A DNA stretch of 21,962 nucleotides, taken from positions 1-21,962 of the IMG/VR virus record IMGVR_UViG_3300032731_000226. One strand, 5' to 3'. Origin of the DNA: a virus. Shown one piece after another: positions 7,212-21,962 of the stretch (within the stretch, counting starts at the first letter, position 1; every line of letters begins with the position of its first letter). A program made the position numbers and the translations under genes. Under the pieces are notes generated by a model. That model was not told the origin of the DNA. It was given only the letters and a program-made list of their open reading frames with translations, and did not search any database.

Positions 7212-9398
7212 ATGCCTATATTTAAAAAGAAATCTAAAGAAACAGAAGAAAAAAAAGAAGACAAAACAGATGACATTGAAAATGGCGTTGTATTGTTTAG
7301 TGATGAAAATGTTACTTTAAATAGTAAACTTGATAAACGTGATGAGGAAGGCGACCCGTTGTATAAAAAAATGAATGACCAGTGGGAAATTAACCGTCAA
7401 ATGGTTGAGAATACTGAAACTATTGAGATAGACGGCAAACAAAAAACTAGGATAACTAATAGCATATTCCCAAAGATTAGAACAATGGTTGGTCTTGAAA
7501 CTGATCAGATGACTAAGCCAGTAGTTCGTATGCCTTTATGGAAAACTGTTGAGGATGGAGAAATAGACCCAAAGAAACGTGACGAAATGTTAGAAAAGGC
7601 AGATGACTTTGAAACTTATTTTAGGCAAAAATGGCAAGATGACCAAGGGCAGACTATTTTAACAAAACTGTTCTTTCAAAAGCATTTTTATGATGATGGA
7701 TTCTTAATACCTAATTGGAATTTTGATGAAGATGACTTTGAATTTATAAACATAAGGACAAAAGATGTAAAGATTGACCCAAATTGTACAACAATAAAAG
7801 ACGCTGAATGGGTTAAATTGATACAATTTTTCAATAAATCAAAGGCTATTGATAGGTTTGGAGCAGATAACGCCGAGAAAATTAAATACGGTGCTTATGA
7901 TATTAATGAGTCTAGCAGTGAATATGGCAAAGACAAGTCAATGGATAATGACGGTGATAAGCTAAGAAAATCAACAGTTAAGGTTGAAACTTGGCTGTTT
8001 GACGGCTTTATTATCTACAGAGCCGAAGGTAAAGAAGGAAAAAAAAGTAAAATCATTTTAAATAAATTAGTTAATCCTTACTATGATTTTGATAGCGAGG
8101 GTGAACAATATCGTAAGTTTATTGAAGGCAAGGCTGATAAAAAAGGTCAACTCGCTAAGTTTGCCGAGGCTAAGGATAAAGAAACCGGAGAATTTAATGA
8201 TGATAAAGTTAATGAAATTTATGATGGCATAAAAGAAGGCGAGGTAGAAGGCGAGGAACTTGATGATACATTTAAGTCGGTAAAAAACTATTTTAAATAT
8301 CCACGCAAAGCTATTATCCATTTCCCAGCATATAGTACCGGCGATAGCTTATATAGTTTTCCAAACTTTAAACAGGGCATACCACTGGCTGACAGCATTG
8401 AAATAACAAAGCAAAGGTTTAAAAGATATGAGGAACACGCATCCGAGCCAACAACATATTATAACTCAGGCAATATTACTGCTGATGAGGCTAAGAAATT
8501 TCAAAGGCGCAGAGCTGGTGAAACAGTTGGTATACCTTTAGAAGGTGATGAAAGTTTAAGGGATAATGTTTTATGGGATAATGGAAAAGAAATGCCGGTG
8601 TCAGTGTTTAACAATATGGCTGATAACGAAAATAAACTTGATGATATATTCGGCAATAATGATATTTCAAGGGGCGTAAGCGACCCAGCTAATAAGACCA
8701 AAGGTGGGATTGAAGCGGTACAACGCGCGGATCAGACGCCTATAAGACTACTTACTAGAAATGACGAGGACGCTATGCAGGAAGTCTTTGAATGGATGAT
8801 GCAGTTTATTGCTCTATTTTATCCAGAACCAAATCATTTTATTGAACGTAATGATGATGAACTTGGCAAATATCAAACACCAATTACTAGCGAGGATGTT
8901 ATAGAAGGAATCAAAGTTTTAGTTAAGACTGGAAGCACAATGCCGGTTAATAAAGAAGCACAGCGTGAAGAGTTAAGAGTTGACGCGGCCAGAGGCATTA
9001 TCGCTCCGGAAACTTACTTTGAAAACCTTGACGAGATTGATGACCCTAAGAAACACGCTTATCGTTTAGCTAACTGGAAACAGGGTTTTGTATCAGACGC
9101 GCCGGTCAATAGCGCACCAACTGAAGGCGGTGAACAGGAAGATTTAGGGCAAGAGGGCGACCCTAATGTACGGATGGCAATGGAAGAAAATGTACAAATG
9201 GAAACTGGACTTAATGTTGATATAAAAAAGGGCGAAGATAGTAAAATTCACTATGACTTACATTTAAGGGGCATTCAAAAAGTAGAGGCAATGCCAGAGG
9301 GCAAGGAAAAAGAAACAGCTAAGGCCGCCTTTGTAGAGCATTTAACTGAAACCAAGGAAGCTCTAGCCCAATTAGGTATTAACGTAGATCAATTATAA
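7212..9398 (+). CDS. Portal protein
   Basis: A 728-aa protein. Portals form a dodecameric ring at one capsid vertex through which DNA enters and leaves. The Lys/Glu-rich N-terminus is followed by NSIFPKIRTMVGLETDQM (about 83-100) and the stem/wing region DVKIDPNCTTIKDAEWVKL (about 185-203). Later come LADSIEITKQRFKRYEEHA and DISRGVSDPANKTKGGIEAVQ, the usual helical and crown segments. A Lys/Glu-rich insert at about 295-355 makes it longer than many portals. The acidic C-terminus contains GGEQEDLGQEGDPNVRM. It follows the promoter-terminator region; no Shine-Dalgarno site is possible in the T-run just before the ATG. Confidence rests on overall pattern and place before scaffold and capsid genes. 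Confidence 0.85.
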   Translation: MPIFKKKSKETEEKKEDKTDDIENGVVLFSDENVTLNSKLDKRDEEGDPLYKKMNDQWEINRQMVENTETIEIDGKQKTRITNSIFPKIRTMVGLETDQMTKPVVRMPLWKTVEDGEIDPKKRDEMLEKADDFETYFRQKWQDDQGQTILTKLFFQKHFYDDGFLIPNWNFDEDDFEFINIRTKDVKIDPNCTTIKDAEWVKLIQFFNKSKAIDRFGADNAEKIKYGAYDINESSSEYGKDKSMDNDGDKLRKSTVKVETWLFDGFIIYRAEGKEGKKSKIILNKLVNPYYDFDSEGEQYRKFIEGKADKKGQLAKFAEAKDKETGEFNDDKVNEIYDGIKEGEVEGEELDDTFKSVKNYFKYPRKAIIHFPAYSTGDSLYSFPNFKQGIPLADSIEITKQRFKRYEEHASEPTTYYNSGNITADEAKKFQRRRAGETVGIPLEGDESLRDNVLWDNGKEMPVSVFNNMADNENKLDDIFGNNDISRGVSDPANKTKGGIEAVQRADQTPIRLLTRNDEDAMQEVFEWMMQFIALFYPEPNHFIERNDDELGKYQTPITSEDVIEGIKVLVKTGSTMPVNKEAQREELRVDAARGIIAPETYFENLDEIDDPKKHAYRLANWKQGFVSDAPVNSAPTEGGEQEDLGQEGDPNVRMAMEENVQMETGLNVDIKKGEDSKIHYDLHLRGIQKVEAMPEGKEKETAKAAFVEHLTETKEALAQLGINVDQL

Positions 9399-10417: not shown

Positions 10418-11395
10418 ATGGCCGTAACCGATTGGGGTAGGCTAACATCAATTACTAGAACAAAAGTTATGCCTTTCGTGGTTAATCAAGTTTCAGAAGA
10501 TTATCCATTGTTAAAAAGATTTTTAACCAAAGGCGAGAAAAAATCCGGTGGTTCTAGGATTGAACAACCTATCACTTATAAATATAAAACTCAAGGCGGA
10601 TGGTATTCCGGAATTGAAGTTTTAAACACAGCACTTGAAAATACCAGAACTCGTGCTTATTGGGATTGGAAACAATTATACGAACCATTGGTTTTTGATA
10701 ATATGGAAATATTTAAAAACTCCGGTGGTGAAGATATAAAAATTGTTGACCTTATGAAACAGGAAGCGCAAGAAGTTAGAGAGTCTTTACGCAATAACTT
10801 CGCAACATCTCTTTATTCTGATGGTACTGGTGATGATAATAAAGAGCTTACAGGTCTTGACGCTGCCATTGATGACGGTACAAACGTCACAATTTATGGT
10901 GGCATTACTATTGGAAATTATAGTTGGTGGGCTGCACAGTACACAGCAGTTAGTGCTGCTATCAGTTGGGCTGCCGTAGCTACAATGTACGATAGTTGTG
11001 CATCCGGTACAGATGCTCCAAGCATTGGTGTTACCACTCCAGCTATTTGGACTGATTTTGAAGCATTGCTAGAGCCGAATGTCAGATACAATTTTCAAGC
11101 CAATGGTTATCCTAAATTTGACGGTGGCATCCAAGATGCAGTCTTATTCAGGGGAATGAAAATCATTAGTGATGAATATTGCACAAGTGGTGAAATGAAT
11201 TTTATTAACGATCGTTATATGAAATTTGTTATTGCCTCTAAGCATCCGAAATATGCTACTGACGCAAACGGTTTTACCACTACTGATTTGAAAGAACCTT
11301 CTGATCAAGATGGTCAAGTTGGTTTCTTACTATGGTGGGGAAATCTTACTAACTCCAGACCTAATAGGAATGGGAGATTAGTATCTATCAGCTAA
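10418..11395 (+). CDS. Major capsid protein (HK97-fold type)
   Basis: A 325-aa protein following the scaffold-like gene. It has the features of HK97-type capsid proteins in this kind of phage: a helical N-arm (MAVTDWGRLTSITRTKVMPF), a strand-rich region ITYKYKTQGGWYSGIEVLN (about 52-70), the spine-helix region VDLMKQEAQEVRESLRNNFA (about 111-130), and DGTGDDNKELTGLDAAIDDG just after it. A C-terminal region follows with RGMKIISDEYC and LLWWGNLTNSRPNRNGR. Many copies would form the icosahedral shell. The leader TTAACCAGAAATATT resembles those of the two paralogous genes downstream. The GroES-like protein upstream may aid its folding. Confidence 0.85.
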   Translation: MAVTDWGRLTSITRTKVMPFVVNQVSEDYPLLKRFLTKGEKKSGGSRIEQPITYKYKTQGGWYSGIEVLNTALENTRTRAYWDWKQLYEPLVFDNMEIFKNSGGEDIKIVDLMKQEAQEVRESLRNNFATSLYSDGTGDDNKELTGLDAAIDDGTNVTIYGGITIGNYSWWAAQYTAVSAAISWAAVATMYDSCASGTDAPSIGVTTPAIWTDFEALLEPNVRYNFQANGYPKFDGGIQDAVLFRGMKIISDEYCTSGEMNFINDRYMKFVIASKHPKYATDANGFTTTDLKEPSDQDGQVGFLLWWGNLTNSRPNRNGRLVSIS

Positions 11396-11405
11396 CCAAA
11401 CTTCT

Positions 11406-12194
11406 ATGAATAAATTAAAAAACTACGCAGGCCTTTTCATAGTTAGTTTATTGGTTGTGGCAGTAATCGTTATAGGTTGTAACGGTTTTACAGCTAAAGC
11501 TGATACTGACGCTGATAGGCTTGATGAGATAATGACAAGTTATCTCCAAATTCAATCTAAAAAATTGGATTTAGAAATTAAGAAATTAGACGTTGTAAGT
11601 AATTCTGTTAGCGAAGTAAATGTAGTTGATGAAAATTTTGGAGCAGTCACTCCTTATATTGAAAACTACTTTGATAATATTAACCGTAATGGTAAATATT
11701 ATAGTGCTTTACCGATTGAGCTTACCGGAACAGCCGGAACTTTAAGCGTAGGTGGTACTTTGACCGTGACTGGTGCTACTACTATTACTGGCGCGATTGG
11801 TGCTGGTGTAGTCGTAACTGATACATTTACCCAAGGCGGTGGAGTAACAGCAACATCTACTAACGGTTCAGCTGGTACATTCCTAGCTACTGCATTTGAT
11901 ACTGAAAATATTATTAGGATTACGGCTAATTTAGCTGCTCCTACTTTTACTTTTACAGCTAGTTCATCTCTAACTTCTTTTATTCCTACTACTGGCGACC
12001 ACAGAATGTTAAGAGTTGAAAATGTTTCTGCAGTAACAAGCACAACTATCGCATTTGGTACTGGTGTTACAGGATTTAATGCATCTACTACAAGTTCATT
12101 TGTAATCGCACCTAGTGAAAACGCTATCCTTCATTTCTGGAGAGTAGCAACAGGTGGCGATATTGAAGTAGATATGATTGGTACACATCAATAA
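11406..12194 (+). CDS. Exported Thr-rich protein with lipobox-like signal
   Basis: A 262-aa protein 10 nt after the capsid gene. The N-terminus is a signal sequence: basic MNKLKNY, a hydrophobic core FIVSLLVVAVIVIG (about 11-24), and VIGC with Cys25, which fits a lipobox. A helical region follows (RLDEIMTSYLQIQSKKLDLEIKKL), then a strand-rich Gly/Thr/Ser body (LSVGGTLTVTGATTITG) and a compact C-terminal domain ending in EVDMIGTHQ. If processed as a lipoprotein it would be anchored to the outer face of a membrane, odd for a gene embedded among capsid genes. The Thr/Ser-rich strands resemble surface proteins of Parcubacteria and phage fibres. Role unknown: capsid decoration, host-surface protein or receptor masking are options. 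Confidence 0.65.
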   Translation: MNKLKNYAGLFIVSLLVVAVIVIGCNGFTAKADTDADRLDEIMTSYLQIQSKKLDLEIKKLDVVSNSVSEVNVVDENFGAVTPYIENYFDNINRNGKYYSALPIELTGTAGTLSVGGTLTVTGATTITGAIGAGVVVTDTFTQGGGVTATSTNGSAGTFLATAFDTENIIRITANLAAPTFTFTASSSLTSFIPTTGDHRMLRVENVSAVTSTTIAFGTGVTGFNASTTSSFVIAPSENAILHFWRVATGGDIEVDMIGTHQ

Positions 12195-12232
12195 AGTTAA
12201 TTTCTTATTAATCAATTTTAACCCACAATATT

Positions 12233-12709
12233 ATGTCCAAAGGTGGAACAATGTCAAACGACATTTCAACTCTTGGTGGAATAGCGGGCGCAATAAAGAC
12301 AGACGGCAATCGTGAATTTATTTATTGCTACGTAGCCGCCGCCGCCGCACAGGGTGCGCCACTCGTATTGACTTACGATGGTGATGAGGCTACTAACCCT
12401 AAAACTGCCGCACCGGCAACATTAGCTGTTTATCAGTTAATCGTATTCCCACTTGCCCTTCAAGGTAGTACTGCCGGATTTGCTTGGTGTCAATATAGAG
12501 GCGACGCCGAGGTTTTAGTTACTGGTGCAACCGACGTTGCCAAAGATGACTTCTTAGAAGTCACTAATACTGAAACAGCGTTGGAAAAAGACGCTACTAC
12601 AGTATCAGTAAATTCAGTAGCTATTGCCCAAGAAGCATACACTGACGCTGCCGATTTATTAACAAATGTTTATTTGTTAGGTAATAGAGTTATTATAGCT
12701 GCCAGTTAA
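12233..12709 (+). CDS. Small head protein, paralog A (decoration-like)
   Basis: A 158-aa protein, paralogous to its downstream neighbour. Shared segments include NDISTLGG, AGAIKTDGNRE, LTYDGDEATNPKTAAP and STAGFAWCQY. The predicted strand-rich compact fold, small size and place after the capsid gene suggest a capsid decoration or cement protein, by inference. Both copies contain conserved Cys residues (YCY and WCQY). An internal ATG at 12251 lies behind AAAGGTGG, but the paralog has ATC there and must start at MSKGGT, so I keep the first ATG. There is no signal peptide. Confidence 0.68.
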   Translation: MSKGGTMSNDISTLGGIAGAIKTDGNREFIYCYVAAAAAQGAPLVLTYDGDEATNPKTAAPATLAVYQLIVFPLALQGSTAGFAWCQYRGDAEVLVTGATDVAKDDFLEVTNTETALEKDATTVSVNSVAIAQEAYTDAADLLTNVYLLGNRVIIAAS

Positions 12710-12737
12710 ATTCTATTTATTATTAACCCATAATTAT

Positions 12738-13226
12738 ATGTCTAAAGGTGGAACAATCCAAAACGACATTTCAACTCTTGGTGGGGTAGCTGGTGCTATT
12801 AAAACTGACGGTAATCGTGAATACATATATTGCTATGTTACTGCCAGTGCTGCAAGAGGTAAGCCGTATGTCTTGACGTATGACGGGGATGAAGCAACTA
12901 ATCCAAAAACTGCTGCTCCATCAACATCTGCTGTTTATCAGCAAATTGTTTTCCCAGTTAAGGCTCAAAGCTCTACCGCGGGCTTTGCTTGGTGCCAGTA
13001 TAAAGGAGATGCTTATGTTTTAGTTGATGGCTCAACTTCCGTAGCTAAAGATGACAATTTAGAAGTTATCACTGCTGGCGTGGCTCTAATTGTTGACGGA
13101 ACTTCTGGTGCTACTACCAAAACTATTAGATCATTAGGTATCGCTCAAGAGGCTCAAGCAACTGCTGCCGCTACACTAACCTATGTTTATCTTTTCGGTG
13201 AAAAAGTAAATGTTGGTGGTTCTTAA
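12738..13226 (+). CDS. Small head protein, paralog B (decoration-like)
   Basis: A 162-aa protein starting MSKGGTIQNDISTLGG, paralogous over its whole length to the gene 28 nt upstream. It differs mainly in the loop TAGVALIVDGTSGATTKTIRS, which is longer here. Both genes have the same type of leader (TTAACCCA, then AT-rich to ATG). Tandem duplication followed by divergence would allow two different subunits on the capsid surface or at different vertices. Function as decoration protein is inferred. A hairpin lies just after its stop. Confidence 0.68.
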   Translation: MSKGGTIQNDISTLGGVAGAIKTDGNREYIYCYVTASAARGKPYVLTYDGDEATNPKTAAPSTSAVYQQIVFPVKAQSSTAGFAWCQYKGDAYVLVDGSTSVAKDDNLEVITAGVALIVDGTSGATTKTIRSLGIAQEAQATAAATLTYVYLFGEKVNVGGS

Positions 13227-13246
13227 ACCGTATTGTTGATTTTTAA

Positions 13247-13271
13247 AGCCTCTGACAAAATGTCGGGGGCT
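13247..13271 (+). terminator. Strong hairpin after the capsid genes, terminator-like
   Basis: AGCCTCTGACA (13247-13257) pairs fully with TGTCGGGGGCT (13261-13271), counting two G-U pairs, around an AAA loop: an 11-bp stem. No T-run follows on the + strand, so termination may be weak. It could instead stabilise the 3' end of the abundant capsid and decoration messages. A second small hairpin, CCGCA-CAT-TGCGG, lies at 13298-13310. Confidence 0.45.
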
Positions 13272-13332
13272 GGATAAAATTAATTAATCGTTGCTCACCG
13301 CACATTGCGGAAGTAACAGAAAGGTAAAAAAT

Positions 13333-14007
13333 ATGAAAGGAAAATTTACACCCATTGAACAAATCAAACCAGACTTAGACCCAAATCAAGCCTGCGTAGT
13401 TTTTAATCCATTACCAGAAGATTTTAGTTTTAAATTTGGCGGTGAATTAATAACATTAAAATCAGAAGAAGGCAACATTATGTCAAAGCCTGTGGCTTTT
13501 CATATGGCAAAACATTTAGCTAAAAAAATTGCTTATGAAGGGCTTTTTGAAGCATTGCAAGAAAAACACAAAGATAATAAGGACATTGCTATGTGGAAAA
13601 AACAAACTGATATGAGAGTTAAACCTGAAACCATTGTCGGCATTATTAATTTATTAGTTAAAGATTTGAAAGGCTTTACTGGTGCTGAAAAACTTGTTGA
13701 AGCTATGAAAGAAAGATTAGATAAGAGTTCTACTATTGAAAAAGCAAAAGAAAGGTCTAAGAAAAACGCTGACGAAAATGATGACGAGGAAGATGAAATT
13801 GTAACTGACGCTGCCAAAGATGATAAAGACGAAAAGCCTAACAAACCTGTTGACGAAGATGAAGATATTGATGAAGACATTGACGAGGAAGAAGACGAGG
13901 AAACACCAGCTGACGAGGAAGATGAAGATGACGAGGAAGATGAAAAACCAGCTAAAAAGAAAGAAGTTAAAAAGAGTAAAACGACTTCCATAAAATCAAA
14001 AAAATAG
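13333..14007 (+). CDS. Acidic-tailed head-region protein
   Basis: A 224-aa protein. The N-terminal domain (about 1-140) starts MKGKFTPIEQIKPDLDPNQA, with KPVAFHMAKHLAKKIAYEGLF and KPETIVGIINLLVKDLKGF, probably folded and mixed alpha/beta. Residues about 145-205 are a run of Asp and Glu broken by Pro and Lys. The last 15 or so are Lys/Ser-rich and basic. Start chosen at ATG 13333 because AGAAAGG precedes it; the frame is open to a TTG at 13291, which would translate the small hairpin there. Genes of this type sit between decoration and adaptor genes in related phages, as far as I can recall, without known function. The acidic tail may mimic DNA or bind basic partners. Confidence 0.65.
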   Translation: MKGKFTPIEQIKPDLDPNQACVVFNPLPEDFSFKFGGELITLKSEEGNIMSKPVAFHMAKHLAKKIAYEGLFEALQEKHKDNKDIAMWKKQTDMRVKPETIVGIINLLVKDLKGFTGAEKLVEAMKERLDKSSTIEKAKERSKKNADENDDEEDEIVTDAAKDDKDEKPNKPVDEDEDIDEDIDEEEDEETPADEEDEDDEEDEKPAKKKEVKKSKTTSIKSKK

Positions 14008-14022
14008 GGTAGTCATTTTATA

Positions 14023-14053
14023 GGTTACTCAATCCACCTCCTTTTGAGTAACC
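14023..14053 (+). promoter_or_regulatory. Hairpin with an anti-Shine-Dalgarno-like loop
   Basis: GGTTACTCAA (14023-14032) and TTGAGTAACC (14044-14053) form a perfect 10-bp stem. The 11-nt loop is TCCACCTCCTT, which contains CACCTCCTT, the sequence at the 3' end of bacterial 16S rRNA. No T-run follows, so it is not a standard terminator. It sits in the 87-nt gap between the acidic protein and the adaptor gene, whose own ATG has AAAGG about 20 nt upstream and a 9-A run (14081-14089). Confidence 0.55.
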
Positions 14054-14094
14054 AATTAAGATAATTATAAAGGTAAAGCTAAAAAAAAATATAT

Positions 14095-14793
14095 ATGAGT
14101 GCATATACAGGGCAAAATTATGTGGATGGGGCTAGAAAAAGTTTAGATGACCCCTTAAAAGAAGCTTGGAGCGATGAAAATTTGCTGGAGTTTGTTAATG
14201 ATGCTCGAGAAGATATTTGGAACGATGCTAAATGGAATTTTAAAAAGTTATTTTCAAATAGTGGTAGTGATGGCGATTATAATACAGTCGTTGATCAAGC
14301 TACTTACTCAATCCCTACTTCTATTGATATATTATTAGGCATAGTAGTCATACTAGGCAATATTAAGTATCCTTTAAAGCCTTTAAGTTTTAGAGATTAT
14401 ACAAGCCGTACTCAAGGCATAGCCGTTGGCGGGTTGCCAACTGGATTTTATAGAGATGGTGATGAAGTATTATTTGACCCTGCACCTAATGAGGCTGACT
14501 CTAATAATATTTATTGGTATGGCTGGGGTAATGTTACTAGACTTGCTTTGGCTGATGAAGAGGGTGATTTTCCAGCTTCATTTTATACGGCTATTAAATT
14601 ACATACTATTGGTTCTGCTTGGGACGCTGATGAAGATGGAATAAATGCTGAAAGATATTGGCGCAGATATGTTGACAGAGTTAAAAAATTAAAACCAAGG
14701 TACGTACCGGAACAATTAGCTTATGCTGATGGTGATAATAGTTTTGGCTGGGTTAGCGAGGATTCACCACAAAGATTAGGTACTATCACTTAA
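14095..14793 (+). CDS. Head-tail adaptor-like protein
   Basis: A 232-aa protein. The start is typical of adaptor/connector proteins: YVDGARKSLDDPLKEAWSDENLLEFVNDAREDIWNDA, helices with the W-x-D-x-x-L-L-x-F-x-N-D-A pattern. A strand-rich middle follows (TYSIPTSIDILLGIVVILG, LPTGFYRDGDEVLFDPAPN), then a helical end YWRRYVDRVKKLKPRY. Such proteins ring the portal and join head to tail; gp11 of T7-like and gp4-like proteins of P22-like phages play this role. It is 4 nt from the next gene, the large beta-rich tail protein, as expected for adaptor and nozzle/hub partners. Confidence 0.7.
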   Translation: MSAYTGQNYVDGARKSLDDPLKEAWSDENLLEFVNDAREDIWNDAKWNFKKLFSNSGSDGDYNTVVDQATYSIPTSIDILLGIVVILGNIKYPLKPLSFRDYTSRTQGIAVGGLPTGFYRDGDEVLFDPAPNEADSNNIYWYGWGNVTRLALADEEGDFPASFYTAIKLHTIGSAWDADEDGINAERYWRRYVDRVKKLKPRYVPEQLAYADGDNSFGWVSEDSPQRLGTIT

Positions 14794-14797
14794 TATT

Positions 14798-16540
14798 ATG
14801 AGAAATGTACAACCACCATTTGGACAATCTAGGGTTATTGGTGGGGTCAATACGGAAGATTATAAACTTGACCTTGCTGAAAATGAACTTGGGTCAGGGA
14901 CACGCAACGGCGTACTGACTAAGATTGGTATTATAAAAAAACGTGAGGGTTCAAGTGAGGTTGGTACTTCAACAGGTGTGTTACCAGTTAGAACATTACA
15001 ACAATATATTGATAGTGACAGTAATAGTTATATTCATAAAATAGTAAATACATTTTTGGTGAGAAGTGATGTTGCAGGTGCAAATAAAGTCAATGTAAAG
15101 ACAGGACTGACAGCAAATTTAGCTACTAAAGGATTATTGTTCTTTTCAATAGATGGTACAAGCGTTGGTAGCGGTACGGCAAGCTCCGGGACAGCCTCAA
15201 CATTAGTTGATACTGGAATTGGTTGGACAGTAAATGAACATATAGACAAAGTAGTTAAAATTACAGTTGGCACTGGTGTAGGACAGGTTAAACAGATTTT
15301 AAGCAATACCGCAGATACATTAGCTATTTTTGGACGGTGGGATACTAACCCTGATGGGACTAGCCAATATGTTATTCAAAGTACAGTAAAATCAGCCATA
15401 TATTCAAACGGTACTGATCAGCCATTTAAAGTGGTTAGCACAACGGCCACAAGTTTAGGTGCGACTTACCCTAAATTTACAGAGGCCATAGTACATTTAA
15501 AACGTATTTTCTACATTGACCCGGATAATAATAAAAAGATTAGGTGGACTGACCCGTTTATTTCTGATGGTGTACTTGAAAGTGATACCCAAAATTTCTG
15601 GGATATTGAAGAGGGTGCAATCGCGCTTGGTCGCGCCGGCCGTAATACATTGGTTATTTATACTTCAAATAAGACCGGTGCTTTACTCGGCGATGAGCCT
15701 GATAATTTCTCATTTGCTTGGGTTGATCAAAAAAATGGTTGTATTGCTAAAGAGAGTGTTAAAAGTTGGGATAATTATAGTATTGCACTAGCAGATGATG
15801 GAGTTTATAGATGCGATGGTGTGTCAAATATACGCGTGTCACGCAAGATAAGCCCTGAATTGAAAGCTATACCCAGACCGTACAGAAGTTTGATTGAGGG
15901 CTTCGTTTTTGACGATAAATACCACCTTACAATGCCTTACTCAAGCACTTCTACCTATAATGATAAAATATGGGTTATGGACTTAATATGGTCGCCTACG
16001 GTTATAGATGAAAAAGGTGAGAGTGATGGTGCGTGGATTCCTTATGAGAGTTTAAACATTAGTACATTTGCTCAAGTAGTTAATTCAGATAATGAGGCAA
16101 TGTTATATTTCGGTAGTGCTACGACTTATAAGATTTATAGACTTTATGATGAAACTTTTAATGATAGTGATTCTCCGATTAACTTTGATGTCTATACTAG
16201 AGGATTTACTTTAGGAATACTTATCAGAAAAAAGAGAATGAAGAAATTGACAGTCTTGGCCGGTGCAAATGATGCTCAATATTTATTAAGTTGTAATTAT
16301 GATTTAGACCAAAAAGGATTTAGTTTTATTGGCAATGTAGATACAAATGTTAAAGGTTCTTTATATGACGTAGCAACCTTTGATGTAGCTACGTTTGGCG
16401 GAGCTGATATAGCAGTTGGAATATTCAAAAATTCTGGTAGTGGTCGAATGGTTCAATATCATTTTTACAACAGAGAATTAGATCAGCCAATGGAAATTTA
16501 CGGCTGGGAACAAGTTTACAAACTTAAAACATATAAATAA
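14798..16540 (+). CDS. Large beta-rich tail protein (hub/nozzle-like)
   Basis: A 580-aa, almost wholly strand-rich protein. The N-terminus GGVNTEDYKLDLAENELGSG (about 15-34), followed by RNGVLTKIGIIKKREG, resembles phage tail hub/stabilisation proteins with beta-propeller-like folds. A Gly/Thr-rich insert lies at about 118-170. Later segments include KRIFYIDPDNNKKIRWTDP, IALADDGVYRCDGVSNIRV and KIWVMDLIWSP, spaced like successive blades. A short internal repeat, DVATFDVATFGG, lies near the C-terminus. The 580 aa exceed P22 gp10 and are below T7 gp12, both tail proteins attached under the adaptor. The assignment to this role comes from position and fold pattern. Its TAA shares its last A with the ATG of the next gene. 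Confidence 0.65.
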   Translation: MRNVQPPFGQSRVIGGVNTEDYKLDLAENELGSGTRNGVLTKIGIIKKREGSSEVGTSTGVLPVRTLQQYIDSDSNSYIHKIVNTFLVRSDVAGANKVNVKTGLTANLATKGLLFFSIDGTSVGSGTASSGTASTLVDTGIGWTVNEHIDKVVKITVGTGVGQVKQILSNTADTLAIFGRWDTNPDGTSQYVIQSTVKSAIYSNGTDQPFKVVSTTATSLGATYPKFTEAIVHLKRIFYIDPDNNKKIRWTDPFISDGVLESDTQNFWDIEEGAIALGRAGRNTLVIYTSNKTGALLGDEPDNFSFAWVDQKNGCIAKESVKSWDNYSIALADDGVYRCDGVSNIRVSRKISPELKAIPRPYRSLIEGFVFDDKYHLTMPYSSTSTYNDKIWVMDLIWSPTVIDEKGESDGAWIPYESLNISTFAQVVNSDNEAMLYFGSATTYKIYRLYDETFNDSDSPINFDVYTRGFTLGILIRKKRMKKLTVLAGANDAQYLLSCNYDLDQKGFSFIGNVDTNVKGSLYDVATFDVATFGGADIAVGIFKNSGSGRMVQYHFYNRELDQPMEIYGWEQVYKLKTYK

Positions 16541-16725
16541 TGTCTAAAAAATATAACCACGAAGATAAAAATGTAAATGGTGAATTTGATGAGGTTTATA
16601 AGAAGACTGATTTGAGTAGAGTAGACGAAGAGCAACCACAAAATCCGCGTGTCGGTATGCAATGGTATCAACCATCAACAGATACTTTAAAAATTTATAA
16701 TGGCACAGCTTGGTTTACACATTAA
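16540..16725 (+). CDS. Small tail-associated protein with YNGxAW module
   Basis: A 61-aa protein translated from an ATG that overlaps the upstream stop (TAATG). The first half is charged (EDKNVNGEFDEVYKKTDLSR). The second half, NPRVGMQWYQPSTDTLKIYN plus GTAW, is the short beta module often found inside phage tail fibres (WYxTxxxxLKIYxGxxW). The next gene carries a similar module around MQYYDGSNWQEF. A free-standing module of this size could cap or connect a fibre. Coupling to the hub-like gene implies a tail role. Confidence 0.7.
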   Translation: MSKKYNHEDKNVNGEFDEVYKKTDLSRVDEEQPQNPRVGMQWYQPSTDTLKIYNGTAWFTH

Positions 16726-16736
16726 TTTAAAACTAT

Positions 16737-18188
16737 ATGAAAAATCTTAACTTAATATTATTACTAGCTCTAGCATTTATCTTAACTGGATGTGATGCGA
16801 CTTTTTCTGATGAGCCGGCACGTGAAAGAGGTATTGGCGCAGCCATAACTAAACCTTATACTTTTTCGCCTAGTGGTGTTATTCGCTCATCAGAAATGAA
16901 CTCAAATTTTGATACAATTTATACCTTAGTTAATGGCAATTTGAATAATGCCAATATTATAGCGTTAGCAGGTATTGCCGCTTCAAAAATTCAAGGTACA
17001 GCAGTTGTTCTTACACCTACGGCTTATTCTCAAACAATAAATAGTGCCATAACTTTAAATGGTGCGCTTTTAATGTCAACGACAACTGGTGCATTTTTAC
17101 CACCTAGTTTAACCGCAGCGCAACGTGATGCTTTAACTCCGACCGCTGGTTGGACACATTGGAATACAAGCTCGACTAGCATGCAATATTATGACGGTAG
17201 TAATTGGCAAGAGTTTAGTTCGGGTGCGTCTGCTTATACTGGAGGTGACGGTATCGCTGTTACTGGTAATAGCGTAGCAGTTGATTTAGTAGCTAGTAAT
17301 GGTTTGGAATTTTCATCTAATGATGAGCTAACCGTTTCAACTTCTACTAATATTATTTTAGAAGGTGGTAATTTATCAGTATCAACTTCAACAACTTATG
17401 CGTGGACTGGGGCTCATACTTTTTCTGCTACTACTACAATGGCTACTTCTACAATAGTAGAATTAACTGTTTCTAATGATGCTACTTTTAATGGCATTTT
17501 ATATATAGGAGCAACTTCATCGGCTAGCTTAGTTGATAGCACAAATGCTGATGATTTACACGACCATAACTTAATAGGGACAGGTAGTAAATATCCTAAA
17601 GATTATTGGAATTTTAGTATTCCGTTTTTAATATCAAGTAATATATCATCAGGTGATTTTTGGACTGCTACTAATTTAAGCGTTTCAGGTAATCACTCAT
17701 CACAATATTTTGTATCTGCTCCAACTGGCGCACCACTTTTAATTACAGCAAGTTCTACTTTCCCGGGATTAAGTTGGGATGATGGCAAAGATGTTATAGT
17801 AGAATTTGGAATGCAAACAGTTGATGGTGTTAATGAAGACCACGGAATTGGTTTAATTCAAAGTTCAATAGAAGAATTAAATACAAGTGCTACTGACGCA
17901 GTTATATTCCTTATTTGGAGTGATGCACTTTATGCTAAAACAAGTAATGCTGGAGTAGGCTTGACTAATAAAATAATTACAGGAATTACTTTAACCGATA
18001 TGAATACTTATAGGATAGAATTTGACGCTGGAGTTTCTGCTAAGTTTTATGTAAACGGTTCACTTGCTACTACTACTACTACGACTTTACCAGATGGAAC
18101 TACTGATATTAAGTTTGGTTTTGGTGGTTTAAATGCTACTGATTATATTAAGTATGTTACAGAACCGATGTTTAGCGTGGAAAAATAA
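16737..18188 (+). CDS. Lipoprotein-signal fibre/adhesin-like protein
   Basis: A 483-aa protein. The signal is MKNLNLILLLALAFILTGC, with lipobox LTGC and Cys19. Residues about 40-90 (KPYTFSPSGVIRSSEMNSNF, then AGIAASKIQG) match a segment common at the start of phage fibre proteins. A YYDGSNW module follows, then a Thr/Ser-rich strand region (ATTTMATSTIVELTVSNDAT). The last 190 or so residues look like a concanavalin/LamG-type sandwich (FWTATNLSVSGNHSSQYF, YRIEFDAGVSAKFYVNGSLA). A six-Thr run is encoded by 18069-18086. A fibre with a lipoprotein signal is unusual. It suggests a protein held on the host surface, perhaps binding sugars. Confidence 0.72.
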   Translation: MKNLNLILLLALAFILTGCDATFSDEPARERGIGAAITKPYTFSPSGVIRSSEMNSNFDTIYTLVNGNLNNANIIALAGIAASKIQGTAVVLTPTAYSQTINSAITLNGALLMSTTTGAFLPPSLTAAQRDALTPTAGWTHWNTSSTSMQYYDGSNWQEFSSGASAYTGGDGIAVTGNSVAVDLVASNGLEFSSNDELTVSTSTNIILEGGNLSVSTSTTYAWTGAHTFSATTTMATSTIVELTVSNDATFNGILYIGATSSASLVDSTNADDLHDHNLIGTGSKYPKDYWNFSIPFLISSNISSGDFWTATNLSVSGNHSSQYFVSAPTGAPLLITASSTFPGLSWDDGKDVIVEFGMQTVDGVNEDHGIGLIQSSIEELNTSATDAVIFLIWSDALYAKTSNAGVGLTNKIITGITLTDMNTYRIEFDAGVSAKFYVNGSLATTTTTTLPDGTTDIKFGFGGLNATDYIKYVTEPMFSVEK

Positions 18189-18205
18189 ATATTAAATAAA
18201 TATTA
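18184..18205 (+). repeat. Tandem 11-mer in the gap after the lipoprotein gene
   Basis: AATAAATATTA is repeated twice without a break and followed by a partial third unit (AATATTA). It begins at the stop codon of the upstream gene and fills most of the 36-nt gap. It is probably AT-rich slippage; a role in transcript processing is possible but unsupported. Confidence 0.5.
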
Positions 18206-18224
18206 AATATTAATCAAAAAACTT

Positions 18225-18653
18225 ATGAGAAAATATCTACACAGTGGGGAACAAACCTCACTAAACGCTCAAAAAGCAACCGGAGCAGGCACAGCTATTA
18301 GTGTTAATGAGTTTAGACATAAAATGCTTACATTAGCAACTGCTGGAATGGCCGCCGGTGATGAAGTAACTATTAAAGTACAAGGTTCTCAATCCAAAAC
18401 TGTACCGACATTTGGAAGTGCAAAAAGTGCTAGCAATAGATGGGATTATATTCAAGTAGTTGACCTTCAAAATGGCGATAAGATTAATGGTGATACTGGC
18501 ATACCTTTTACATTTACTGATGATGGCACTGCTGATGTAAAACAATTTGCTATCAATGTTGATGGTTTAAGATGGATTTGTTTAAATATTACAGCTAACA
18601 ATGATACAACCAATGTTGCCGTTACTGGCTTAATTGATGTTTATAATGATTAA
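18225..18653 (+). CDS. Small beta-rich structural protein
   Basis: A 142-aa protein. It contains AISVNEFRHKMLTLATAGMA, VTIKVQGSQSKTVPTFGSAK, SASNRWDYIQVVDLQNGDKI and FAINVDGLRWICLNI. This strand pattern, with a conserved NRWDYIQVxDLxxG segment, looks like a small beta-sandwich of the type encoded near phage fibre genes; I know no defined function. There is no signal peptide, unlike its two large neighbours. The leader TCAAAAAACTT-ATG lacks a Shine-Dalgarno site. It may be an accessory or capping subunit of the fibre set. Confidence 0.6.
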   Translation: MRKYLHSGEQTSLNAQKATGAGTAISVNEFRHKMLTLATAGMAAGDEVTIKVQGSQSKTVPTFGSAKSASNRWDYIQVVDLQNGDKINGDTGIPFTFTDDGTADVKQFAINVDGLRWICLNITANNDTTNVAVTGLIDVYND

Positions 18654-18664
18654 AATATAAAACT

Positions 18665-19480
18665 ATGTTAAAAGATAAAAAGTTTTTAATTTTACTGGGA
18701 TTTTTATTAATCTTGGTAGTGTTTAATTTGTGCCAATTAGTTGCAAATAAACAAAATGATAATTTTGGAGCTAGAACTTCTGATGATCAATGGGATAATG
18801 ATGGAGATGATATTTATTACACTGATGGCAACGCTGGTTTTGGTACTAATACGCCAAATGAAGGATTAACTCTATCGTCAAGTACTTTAATGGTTCACGA
18901 ACTTGGTTATCCGGAAAATGTAACTACGGCAACAACTACCGGTGGTTCTTTAATAGCAACGACCACTCATTATTTTCTAGTTTCTGCTGTAAATGGAAAT
19001 GGTGAAACAAAGACGGTAAGTGAGCAAACTTGTGTTACCAGTGATGTTGGTGAATCAGCCATAGCCACTAAATGTAATATAACTTGGGAAGCTATTTCTC
19101 TAGCCGATTCTTATAATGTTTGGGTATCAACTTCAACCGGAGCGTTTACAAGATATTTTTCAACTACTACTATTCCGGCTCAAATTGCTACCACTACAAA
19201 TGCTTCAGTTGGAACATTAATAACAGAAACAGACGCTTATATAAATCAAATAGGGGCTAACGCTGATAATTTCTTTTTAGGAAATAAAACTGGTATTGGT
19301 ACAGCTACACCTAGAGAATTATTGGATATTTATAGCACAGCAACTCCAACACTTCATCTTAGTACTTCGGCGGTGGATAAAGGCGGTTCTATTGAAATGA
19401 AAAATAGTGCTGGAACGCTAAGCTGTTTTTATATAGTTGGCACAACACCAACTGTTGTGGCAGGAGCTTGTAGTAATTAA
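18665..19480 (+). CDS. Membrane-anchored or exported fibre-like protein with FnIII-like domain
   Basis: A 271-aa protein. Basic MLKDKK is followed by a 20-residue hydrophobic stretch (about 7-27, FLILLGFLLILVVFNLCQLV). There is no clear cleavage site, so it may stay as an N-terminal anchor. Then come an acidic linker (SDDQWDNDGDDIYYTDGNAG), a GFGTNTP motif (59-64), a fibronectin-like domain (about 80-190; HYFLVSAVNGNGETKTVSEQ, ADSYNVWVS) and a second GIGTATPRELLDI motif (about 210-222). The C-terminus reads GGSIEMKNSAGTLSCFYIV. The GxGTxxP motif occurs in phage fibres and Parcubacteria surface proteins. Probable surface adhesin or fibre; function inferred. Confidence 0.62.
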   Translation: MLKDKKFLILLGFLLILVVFNLCQLVANKQNDNFGARTSDDQWDNDGDDIYYTDGNAGFGTNTPNEGLTLSSSTLMVHELGYPENVTTATTTGGSLIATTTHYFLVSAVNGNGETKTVSEQTCVTSDVGESAIATKCNITWEAISLADSYNVWVSTSTGAFTRYFSTTTIPAQIATTTNASVGTLITETDAYINQIGANADNFFLGNKTGIGTATPRELLDIYSTATPTLHLSTSAVDKGGSIEMKNSAGTLSCFYIVGTTPTVVAGACSN

Positions 19481-19488
19481 ACAAATAT

Positions 19489-20364
19489 ATGAATTTAAAC
19501 CAATTAAAACAACTTAATAGTAAAATCAAGGATGCTGAAAAAAAACTCAACAGAGTTTTGGTTGCTATAAATACTTCTAAGGCTGAATCGGAAGAATATA
19601 AAATTAAGGCAGATGAAGCTAAAAAACTATATAAAGAATCTTTGCCAAAAAAAGACAGTTTGGAAGTAGATATTTATAAACTTGGTTTAAAAGTTAATAA
19701 AATTAATGTAGGTATTTCAGAAAAGCAAATTGAACGCACTAATATTGAAAATGAATTATCAGTATTAAATACTCAAATTAGTGAGAAGACTACCGAATTA
19801 ATATATATTCAAGATAAGGCTAATAAAGAGATTAATAAAATTAATTCAAAATTTAATGATGCTGAAAGCCAGTTTAATAAAAAAATGGTTAAAATTAAAA
19901 ATGAATTAGATAGTTTTGAATCTGATAAAAAAGATAAGGAAGATAAGTTAAAGACAATAGATGACAAGATTGAAAATAGTAAAAAAGTAAAATCTGAATT
20001 GATCACGGAAATTGATGATTTAGAATTAACTAAAAAATCATTAAAATCTGATATTAAAGATTTAAAAACTAAATTTGAAGAAGCTGAAAATAAAGTGCTT
20101 GAATTAAATAATAATATATCAGACCTTGATGATGAATATAAAAAAGCTAATAAAAAATTAAAAGAGCTTATAGATAAAATTGAAAAACTTGAAAAGGATA
20201 AAATAAAGTTACAAAATGACGTTGATAAATTAAAGAAAGAAAAGATTTATGTTTCACAGTTTCATCAATATTTAAAAGACATGGAGTTAGAAATAAAAAG
20301 AAATTATAGTGACGCTGGATTACAATATCAATTTTATGAACCATTTAATAAAAAAGATGAATAA
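19489..20364 (+). CDS. Long coiled-coil protein
   Basis: A 291-aa protein whose residues about 1-255 form an almost unbroken heptad-rich, Lys/Glu/Asp-rich coiled coil (KLKTIDDKIENSKKVKSELI is typical), with one break at ESLPKKDSLEV. The C-terminal 35 residues are globular-looking (VSQFHQYLKDMELEIKRNYS and YQFYEPF). There is no signal peptide, although both flanking genes have export signals. It could be an intracellular chaperone or rod partner for the fibres. It overlaps the next gene by 8 nt (ATGAATAA), implying coupled synthesis. Superficial similarity to SMC or tape-measure proteins is expected from coiled-coil composition and is not evidence of that role. Confidence 0.65.
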   Translation: MNLNQLKQLNSKIKDAEKKLNRVLVAINTSKAESEEYKIKADEAKKLYKESLPKKDSLEVDIYKLGLKVNKINVGISEKQIERTNIENELSVLNTQISEKTTELIYIQDKANKEINKINSKFNDAESQFNKKMVKIKNELDSFESDKKDKEDKLKTIDDKIENSKKVKSELITEIDDLELTKKSLKSDIKDLKTKFEEAENKVLELNNNISDLDDEYKKANKKLKELIDKIEKLEKDKIKLQNDVDKLKKEKIYVSQFHQYLKDMELEIKRNYSDAGLQYQFYEPFNKKDE

Positions 20365-21962
20365 ATATTTATTATTAGGATTTTCAATCTTATTGTTATT
20401 TTTTGTTAGTGCTGATAATGTGTCGGCCGCTAGAACAGAGGGATATTGGAGTCCTATAACATCATCTTTTTTACATACAACTAAACCAACTGGTTATAGC
20501 TTACAAATTCAAGGCAGTAATAAATATCTTAACTTTAATTCCTTGCGTGGCGTATCAGGTTATGGTTTTAGAGATAGTGCTGGCGATATGCAAGTCAAAA
20601 ATAGTGGAGGCTCTTGGGCTGATATAGTTTTTAGTGGAGGAGATGTTATATTCGGCACTCTAAACGCAGGCACTACAACCCTCGCAGCCACAGGCACTAA
20701 TCCAATCTTAACAGTTACACAAGGTGGTACAGGCAATGCTTTAAGTATTACAGGAACAACTACTATGGCAGGTGATTTAATTGTAGATACTAATACTCTT
20801 TATGTAGATTCTATTAATAATAGAGTTGGAATAGGTAGAATCCCATTGGTAGAATCCCTTGAGGTAGAAAATGGTATTGACTTATTCCATACTGCTATTG
20901 AAGCTAATGACCACGCCTTTGAGATTGCCTTAGACGCTGCTGGATTTGGAGATGTTAAAGCCATAGATATTAACTACACTTCTGGAGCAATAGCTGACGG
21001 ACAAGATGAAGGAGTTGTTTTAGTTAATATTGATGAAACTTCTGCTACTGGTGGGGATGTATTTGCCTTAGAAGTATTGGCTACGGATGGTTCTGCTGAT
21101 ATTTATGGATTAAAAGTCGCAGCTTTAGTTAATCCTGTTCATCAAGATTCAGGAACATTCGCTAATCCCACTACAGGAACAGACAATAGTACATCAACTG
21201 ATGTGGCTGCTATGATAGATGGAGATTCTGGAACATTAACTTCTATCTTTGAAGCTGATAATGAATATATAATAATAGGTGCAGCAACAGCATTTGAAGA
21301 GCTTGAATTTATTCTCACTACAGTTTCAAGTGGAGCGGGTGTAAATCCTACATTTTGGTATTCAACTGCAGGAGCGGGACAGTTTACTCAATTTACTCCC
21401 ACAGACGGAACTAATGGATTTAGAAATACAGGTGTTGTTGCTTGGGATGCAAGCGATTTAACTGCTCATACTACCAATGATGATACTGGAACTTATGATA
21501 TTAAAGTTATAAGAACAAGAAATAATTTAAGCACAACTCCAATTTTAGGATATGCCAAGTCGGCAGCCACTACTGAATATATTTGGGATAAGAATGGGAA
21601 TATAAATTTATTATCAGTTATTGCTCCTACTATTTGGGGTGCTTCTACTTCTGCTACCGACCTAACCATAAGAGGCACGTCACACGGAGATAATAATGGC
21701 GATATAATTTTAAATGATTTAGGTGGGAATGTAGTTTTAAAAGATACAACATCTGCTACTACTGGTAATATTTTTAAAGGTGCTAATAGATTCATGCACA
21801 ACTTCCACGACCCAAATGGAAATGGATTTATTCCTATAGGAAGAAATACTTTTGTTGGAGAATTAGCAGGTAACTTCACAATGGGAAGTACTGCCGCAGC
21901 AGGTACATATGAAGCTTCTTATAATGTCGGGATAGGATATGCTGCCCTCTACTCCAACACCA
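20357..21962 (+). CDS. Secreted tail-fibre-like protein (3' truncated)
   Basis: The frame is open from ATG 20357 to the right edge with no stop: 535 residues seen. The N-terminus MNKYLLLGFSILLLFFVSAD is a Sec-type signal with possible cleavage after VSA at 17-19 or 22-24. A strand-rich body follows: TTTLAATGTNPILTVTQGGT, RVGIGRIPLVESLEVENG (about 157-174), and Gly/Thr-rich domains with TFWYSTAGAGQFTQF. Near the edge come IGRNTFVGELAGN and NVGIGYAALYSNT, the kind of repeat that leads into the C-terminal head and chaperone domain of trimeric fibres. That end is outside the window. A signal peptide on such a fibre-like protein is unexpected for an intracellularly assembled virion. Confidence 0.72.
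   Translation, partial: MNKYLLLGFSILLLFFVSADNVSAARTEGYWSPITSSFLHTTKPTGYSLQIQGSNKYLNFNSLRGVSGYGFRDSAGDMQVKNSGGSWADIVFSGGDVIFGTLNAGTTTLAATGTNPILTVTQGGTGNALSITGTTTMAGDLIVDTNTLYVDSINNRVGIGRIPLVESLEVENGIDLFHTAIEANDHAFEIALDAAGFGDVKAIDINYTSGAIADGQDEGVVLVNIDETSATGGDVFALEVLATDGSADIYGLKVAALVNPVHQDSGTFANPTTGTDNSTSTDVAAMIDGDSGTLTSIFEADNEYIIIGAATAFEELEFILTTVSSGAGVNPTFWYSTAGAGQFTQFTPTDGTNGFRNTGVVAWDASDLTAHTTNDDTGTYDIKVIRTRNNLSTTPILGYAKSAATTEYIWDKNGNINLLSVIAPTIWGASTSATDLTIRGTSHGDNNGDIILNDLGGNVVLKDTTSATTGNIFKGANRFMHNFHDPNGNGFIPIGRNTFVGELAGNFTMGSTAAAGTYEASYNVGIGYAALYSNT

Follow-up and report, generated by a model that had tools for sequence, protein, structure and literature searches.

Predicted Sec export signals recur on fibre-like late proteins of a tailed-phage family that probably infects Patescibacteria

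The fibres of tailed phages are taught as cytoplasmic products. Phage-encoded proteins displayed by the infected cell include the superinfection-exclusion lipoproteins of the T5 Llp type, which are small and dedicated. PblA and PblB are said to lack a Sec signal and to reach the surface through lysis functions. These phage tail proteins, encoded by Streptococcus mitis phage SM1 and by prophages of pneumococci, serve the lysogen as adhesins (PMC8637289). In Bdellovibrio, the mosaic adhesive trimer (MAT) proteins are exported, phage-fibre-like surface adhesins with signal peptides (PMC10769870). Phages of groundwater Patescibacteriota are reported to carry surface-adhesion genes (concanavalin-like lectins), which were described as auxiliary (PMC12911398). 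Searches of the open-access literature gave no account of Patescibacteria tailed phages whose fibres bear export signals. Here we describe four proteins with predicted N-terminal export signals that are encoded in a tailed-phage late operon, on IMG/VR record IMGVR_UViG_3300032731_000226. The window analysed is the whole record of 21,962 bases; it is evidently a genome fragment and ends within the last of the four genes.

Signals were called by a simple rule of our own (a 10-residue core with a mean Kyte-Doolittle hydropathy of at least 2.0 and no charge, with a basic n-region) on mechanically predicted open reading frames (ORFs). Only four of the 27 coding sequences in the window pass, those starting at 11406, 16737, 18665 and 20357, and a stricter rule is passed by 0.25% of residue-shuffled N-termini of the window ORFs. 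A preliminary description of this DNA had placed signals on these four genes within a phage structural operon, and both points are borne out.

A predicted lipoprotein directly after the major capsid protein (MCP) gene (11406..12194, plus strand) begins MNKLKNYAGLFIVSLLVVAVIVIGC, with the lipobox VIGC at Cys25. The fibre-like predicted lipoprotein at 16737..18188 (plus strand), which lies behind a 61-aa ORF that itself follows the head-closure gene, begins MKNLNLILLLALAFILTGC, with the lipobox LTGC at Cys19. Both have the basic n-region, the hydrophobic core and the lipobox ending in Cys of Sec lipoproteins. The third protein (18665..19480, plus strand) begins MLKDKKFLILLGFLLILVVFNLCQLVANKQNDNFGARTSDDQW and is of an anchor type, its transmembrane (TM) core being followed by NDNFG-ARTSDDQW. 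The fibre at 20357..21962 (plus strand), truncated by the contig end, begins MNKYLLLGFSILLLFFVSADNVSA followed by ARTEGYW, and has the n-, h- and c-regions of a signal peptidase I (SPase I) substrate, with a (-3,-1) site of AXA type, VSA↓A, at residue 24 (the arrow marks predicted cleavage). Behind it lies a SNKYLNFNS..GYGFRD..KNSGGSW module. Further in-frame starts exist upstream (ATG at 20336, GTG at 20309), and the hydrophobic core is kept from any start.

The window is part of a tailed-phage late operon. As is characteristic of Caudoviricetes, TerL (2619; phrog_2), the MCP (10418..11395, plus strand; phrog_9953, E 9e-50) and neck proteins are encoded in a single operon. The latter include an SU10-type adaptor (14095; PF24175, E 9e-13) and a gp10/Hc3-like head-closure protein (14798..16540, plus strand; phrog_3287, E 2e-10; phrog_578, E 8e-5), which places the neighbourhood in the neck/tail module.

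Unlike the T5 Llp type, the window proteins are fibre-like, have about 260 aa or more and lie inside a structural operon. Unlike PblA and PblB, which are said to be signal-less, they carry signals, a comparison made by description and not by sequence homology. A likeness to MAT proteins was seen in a neighbour of 20357, the small beta protein 18225, whose model gave a weak fold match to MAT Bd2133. MATs are, however, the predator's own genes, with none reported within a phage operon in the part of that publication drawn on here (PMC10769870), and the Pfam S74 domain of a MAT-type tip was found neither in 20357, which the contig end truncates, nor in the other members tested. The groundwater phages resemble the present case in that phage-encoded adhesion at the cell surface is proposed for the same host group, but the main text of that report mentions neither signals nor tails (PMC12911398).

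Profile searches identified 17 phages that share the module of small beta protein, coiled coil and fibre (18225, 19489 and 20357 in the window); close relatives are few and many of the loci are fragments. Counting late ORFs of at least 100 aa with a single N-terminal signal and no further membrane segment, 31 of 132 family ORFs bear signals (23.5%), versus 4 of 196 (2.0%) in 14 control phages taken non-randomly from BLAST hits (Fisher p 5.5e-10) and 2 of 187 (1.1%) in 27 other viral contigs, AT-rich ones included, that share only the fibre pattern or near variants (p 3e-11). The signals are thus a family-wide trait that extends beyond one contig. They recur directly after the MCP (window 11406, L110, L117, L119 with the lipobox LSGC, L072 and the complete genome G748), between the small beta protein and the coiled coil (window 18665, L071, L110, L111, L113), and on the fibre itself (window 20357, L066, L068, L069, L071, L074, L078). 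G748, complete with a 107-bp terminal repeat, has seven signal-bearing genes. Locus L127 has four consecutive signal-bearing ORFs, and its homologous-looking head-closure ORF, an ORF of 61-64 aa and the 16737 homologue stand in the order seen in the window. Three more signal-bearing ORFs follow that homologue in a row (L127 3-1797, minus strand), two of which share GAAVSQFG / GAVSQYG directly behind the signal.

One fixed set of four, as the preliminary description had it, is not what the family contains: the type and number of signals differ between phages and several orthologues are signal-less. Among 14 orthologues of 20357, seven carry a signal and seven do not (L067, L070, L072, L073, L075 and L077 among the latter). 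A tree of these 14 members has low support overall, and on it signal presence changed at least three times; the sister relationship of the window and L066 is fully supported, the topology being otherwise poorly resolved. Homologues without hydrophobic starts had been named as evidence that would count against the signals. Such starts are lacking in some homologues and present in others, and the exceptions keep the same mature N-terminus, which strengthens the signal reading.

Signal-less fibres start M-ARTDNCW, M-ARTDSKW, M-ARTQGFW or M-GRRDELW, from which Met would be expected to be lost, its removal before Ala, Gly or Ser being the textbook rule. Their signal-bearing counterparts read VSA↓ARTEGYW (window), TNA↓ARTSEVW (L069), VSA↓GSVYDTW (L068) and SKA↓AFDGSLW (L074). 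In each of these four AXA-type fibres, cleavage at the domain-proximal (-3,-1) site would put W at +7 and leave exactly the N-terminus at which signal-less homologues begin; the window, L068 and L069 have one or two further rule-conforming sites. In anchor-type members the motif is retained and a short spacer precedes it (INFG-ARTDGVW, DNFG-ARTSDDQW). ART..W also stands behind the signals of non-homologous proteins (L110 6371, L113 6342, L117 7069 and window 18665), and 11 of its 12 occurrences in family ORFs fall within the first 40 residues, against none of seven in the controls (245,000 residues). We infer that ART..W may be one docking end reached by two routes, Met removal and signal cleavage. 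The four signals are all real by these measures, but 18665 and 20357 share the N-terminal motif (A)RT..W and so are not independent cases. An internal start yielding a signal-less fibre was considered and rejected, as it is not conserved (a GTG at codon 22 in the window, none near the site in L068 and L074). The ART module has no sequence match in the PDB (a profile search with our alignment A7 was empty), and the AF2 model of the domain reached a pTM of 0.47.

In the slot of 16737 the anchor varies while predicted export recurs. A domain TKPYTFSP..SSEMNSNFDTIYTLVNG stands behind a lipobox in the window, behind a signal and a LysM domain in L127 (Pfam E 5e-4, just under the cut-off), and behind nothing in L126; the first ~190 residues of 16737 are 48% identical to L127 1852-3333. 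In L009 the slot is occupied by a signal protein of SPase I type, and in L117 a LysM domain lies behind a signal (E 1e-12). Lipid, LysM and TM segments are all means of retaining a protein at the envelope, and so speak for display on the infected cell.

We consider, with about as much confidence as doubt, that these are most likely Sec-exported fibres displayed on the infected cell as surface adhesins or receptor-binding fibres. The four fibre-like proteins would be made during infection and moved across the cytoplasmic membrane as Sec substrates, the best-supported step of the scheme, and would then appear on the outer face of the cell. There 11406 and 16737 would be held by lipid and 18665 by its TM anchor, and 20357 would be freed from the membrane by SPase I with ART..W as its new N-terminus. 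The surface fibres might stick the cell to partners or occupy the phage's own receptor, and the envelope anchors slightly favour such an adhesin or receptor mask. Three observations weigh against this interpretation. The mature N-terminus matches that of signal-less homologues, which is unexplained if the fibres only stayed on the cell; the only ART fibre of G748 is signal-bearing, so its virion would be left without that fibre; and the coiled-coil partner is signal-less in every relative.

The conserved mature end and the single signal-bearing fibre of G748 instead favour an alternative that is possible, though less probable, in which the exported fibres are virion parts. Once across the membrane and cut to ART..W, they would be kept at the envelope and attach through that end to virions, either during release or later, and their signal-less relatives would dock by the same end in the cytoplasm. 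The identity of ends made by Met removal (M-ARTDxxW) or by cleavage (window and L069), the spread of that end to non-homologous proteins and its confinement to N-termini, the one ART-fibre copy in a complete genome, and the conserved operon order with a signal-less coiled coil are all consistent with loading outside the cell. Against it, the lipid-anchored and LysM-bearing members look built to remain in the envelope, and we know of no tailed phage that loads its fibres outside the cell. Operon position and signal-less orthologues suggest that the family fibre may be a virion tail fibre. The fuller form of this idea, which we put forward with considerable doubt, is that a family of Patescibacteria tailed phages finishes its virions outside the membrane, picking up at the cell surface Sec-exported fibres cut to an ART..W docking end. 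If true, part of the assembly of a tailed phage would here take place in the extracytoplasmic space.

Display on the cell and assembly outside the membrane, the roles proposed earlier, do appear to be the right alternatives, since the signals recur and the proteins are fibre-like; sequence alone does not distinguish between adhesion, masking and virion loading. With a quarter of late genes bearing Sec signals, and one fibre family that comes both with and without a signal yet has the same mature end, these phages offer a direct test of whether tailed phages can exploit host export for virion or surface functions. Patescibacteria live attached to other cells, and fibres displayed through phage genes could alter attachment.

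The hydrophobic N-termini might also be no export signals but uncleaved virion elements, such as membrane-active entry segments. Membrane-active ejection proteins are common in podoviruses, and the anchors of 18665, L066 and L111 have no clear AXA site beside the core. We consider this improbable, given the basic n-regions, the pair of canonical lipoboxes, the exact coincidence of AXA sites with the domain start, and the LysM domains directly behind the signal in L117 and L127.

The host is probably a patescibacterium, because a relative reads TGA as glycine and because the fibre module is found mainly in Patescibacteria genomes. A sister phage with the module (L077, IMGVR_UViG_3300025154_000172) uses TGA for glycine throughout its late genes, with in-frame TGA facing conserved glycines in 12/12, 12/12, 12/12, 9/9 and 8/9 cases, plus weaker columns. 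This is code 25, that of Gracilibacteria/Absconditabacteria; two window genes end in TGA, so code 25 does not apply to the window. A degenerate DNA pattern for GYGFRD..KNSGGSW matched 23 viral contigs and 31 genome contigs, the latter mostly Patescibacteria (Kaiserbacteria, Adlerbacteria and others), and many of the Patescibacteria-encoded proteins with the module carry signals. A 542-aa alignment joins 20357 to a protein encoded in a Patescibacteria genome that shares its class with a Kaiserbacteria genome, whereas 20357 had no match among phage-collection records. The module shared with exported host proteins and this long alignment would fit fibre genes that recombined with host surface-protein genes and gained host signals of no phage function, but we regard this as very unlikely, as individual phages carry signals on several genes that are unrelated, the slots are fixed, many lineages are involved, and cleavage stays in register with ART..W, an end that is absent from the host proteins examined (SAWTGP..).

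The body of 20357 has a chromosomal homologue on contig 20 of Patescibacteria genome G628 (L109/L104), an ORF of at least 1603 aa that is truncated by its contig end. A search of 380 sampled Patescibacteria genomes with the profile from alignment A5 yielded no provirus, as it matched only a common N-terminal repeat domain. Scans of viral contigs with the MCP, head-closure protein, TerL and full 20357 gave only two loci (L002 and L007), which were discarded as chance matches in unrelated frames.

In 11406 the lipobox is followed by a short acidic/coil stretch and then Thr/Ser-rich beta repeats. Its residues 4-50, hydrophobic region included, match a signal protein of G748 (E 3e-6), and residues 169-246 match L117 4717 (E 2e-7). 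The small beta-sandwich protein (18225..18653, plus strand; family alignments A5/A6), the marker of the conserved module, has no signal, and its homologue in L117 has one. Its AF2 model (pLDDT 78, pTM 0.74) shows a sandwich fold with weak similarity to the prophage proteins YomS/XepA. The signal-less coiled-coil protein (19489..20364, plus strand; alignment A3) lies directly upstream of the fibre, and its relatives have a C-terminus like ..AGxxY...

Relatives of the MCP by tblastn include Mx8/Mx9 and the TM7 phage DolZOral124_53_65. A portal candidate at 7212 is weakly supported. A tandem duplicate (12233-12709 and 12738-13226; 158 and 162 aa) likely encodes a head-decoration protein, and both copies have a similar TTAACCCA..AAT leader upstream. 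Only 1 of 15 window late genes is preceded by a Shine-Dalgarno-like sequence; the leaders are AT-rich, and a TTAAC/TTAAT element lies ~15 bases ahead of the start codon in several late genes. Searches with PADLOC and of the PDB yielded either nothing or marginal matches. The window also encodes a small protein with a string of Cys-x-x-Cys units (326-658; GCSDCSYCSDCPYC..., phrog_15341) and a phage GroES-like co-chaperonin (1918-2208; phrog_3188), and both MW202566 and the related TM7 phage have chaperonin genes as well.

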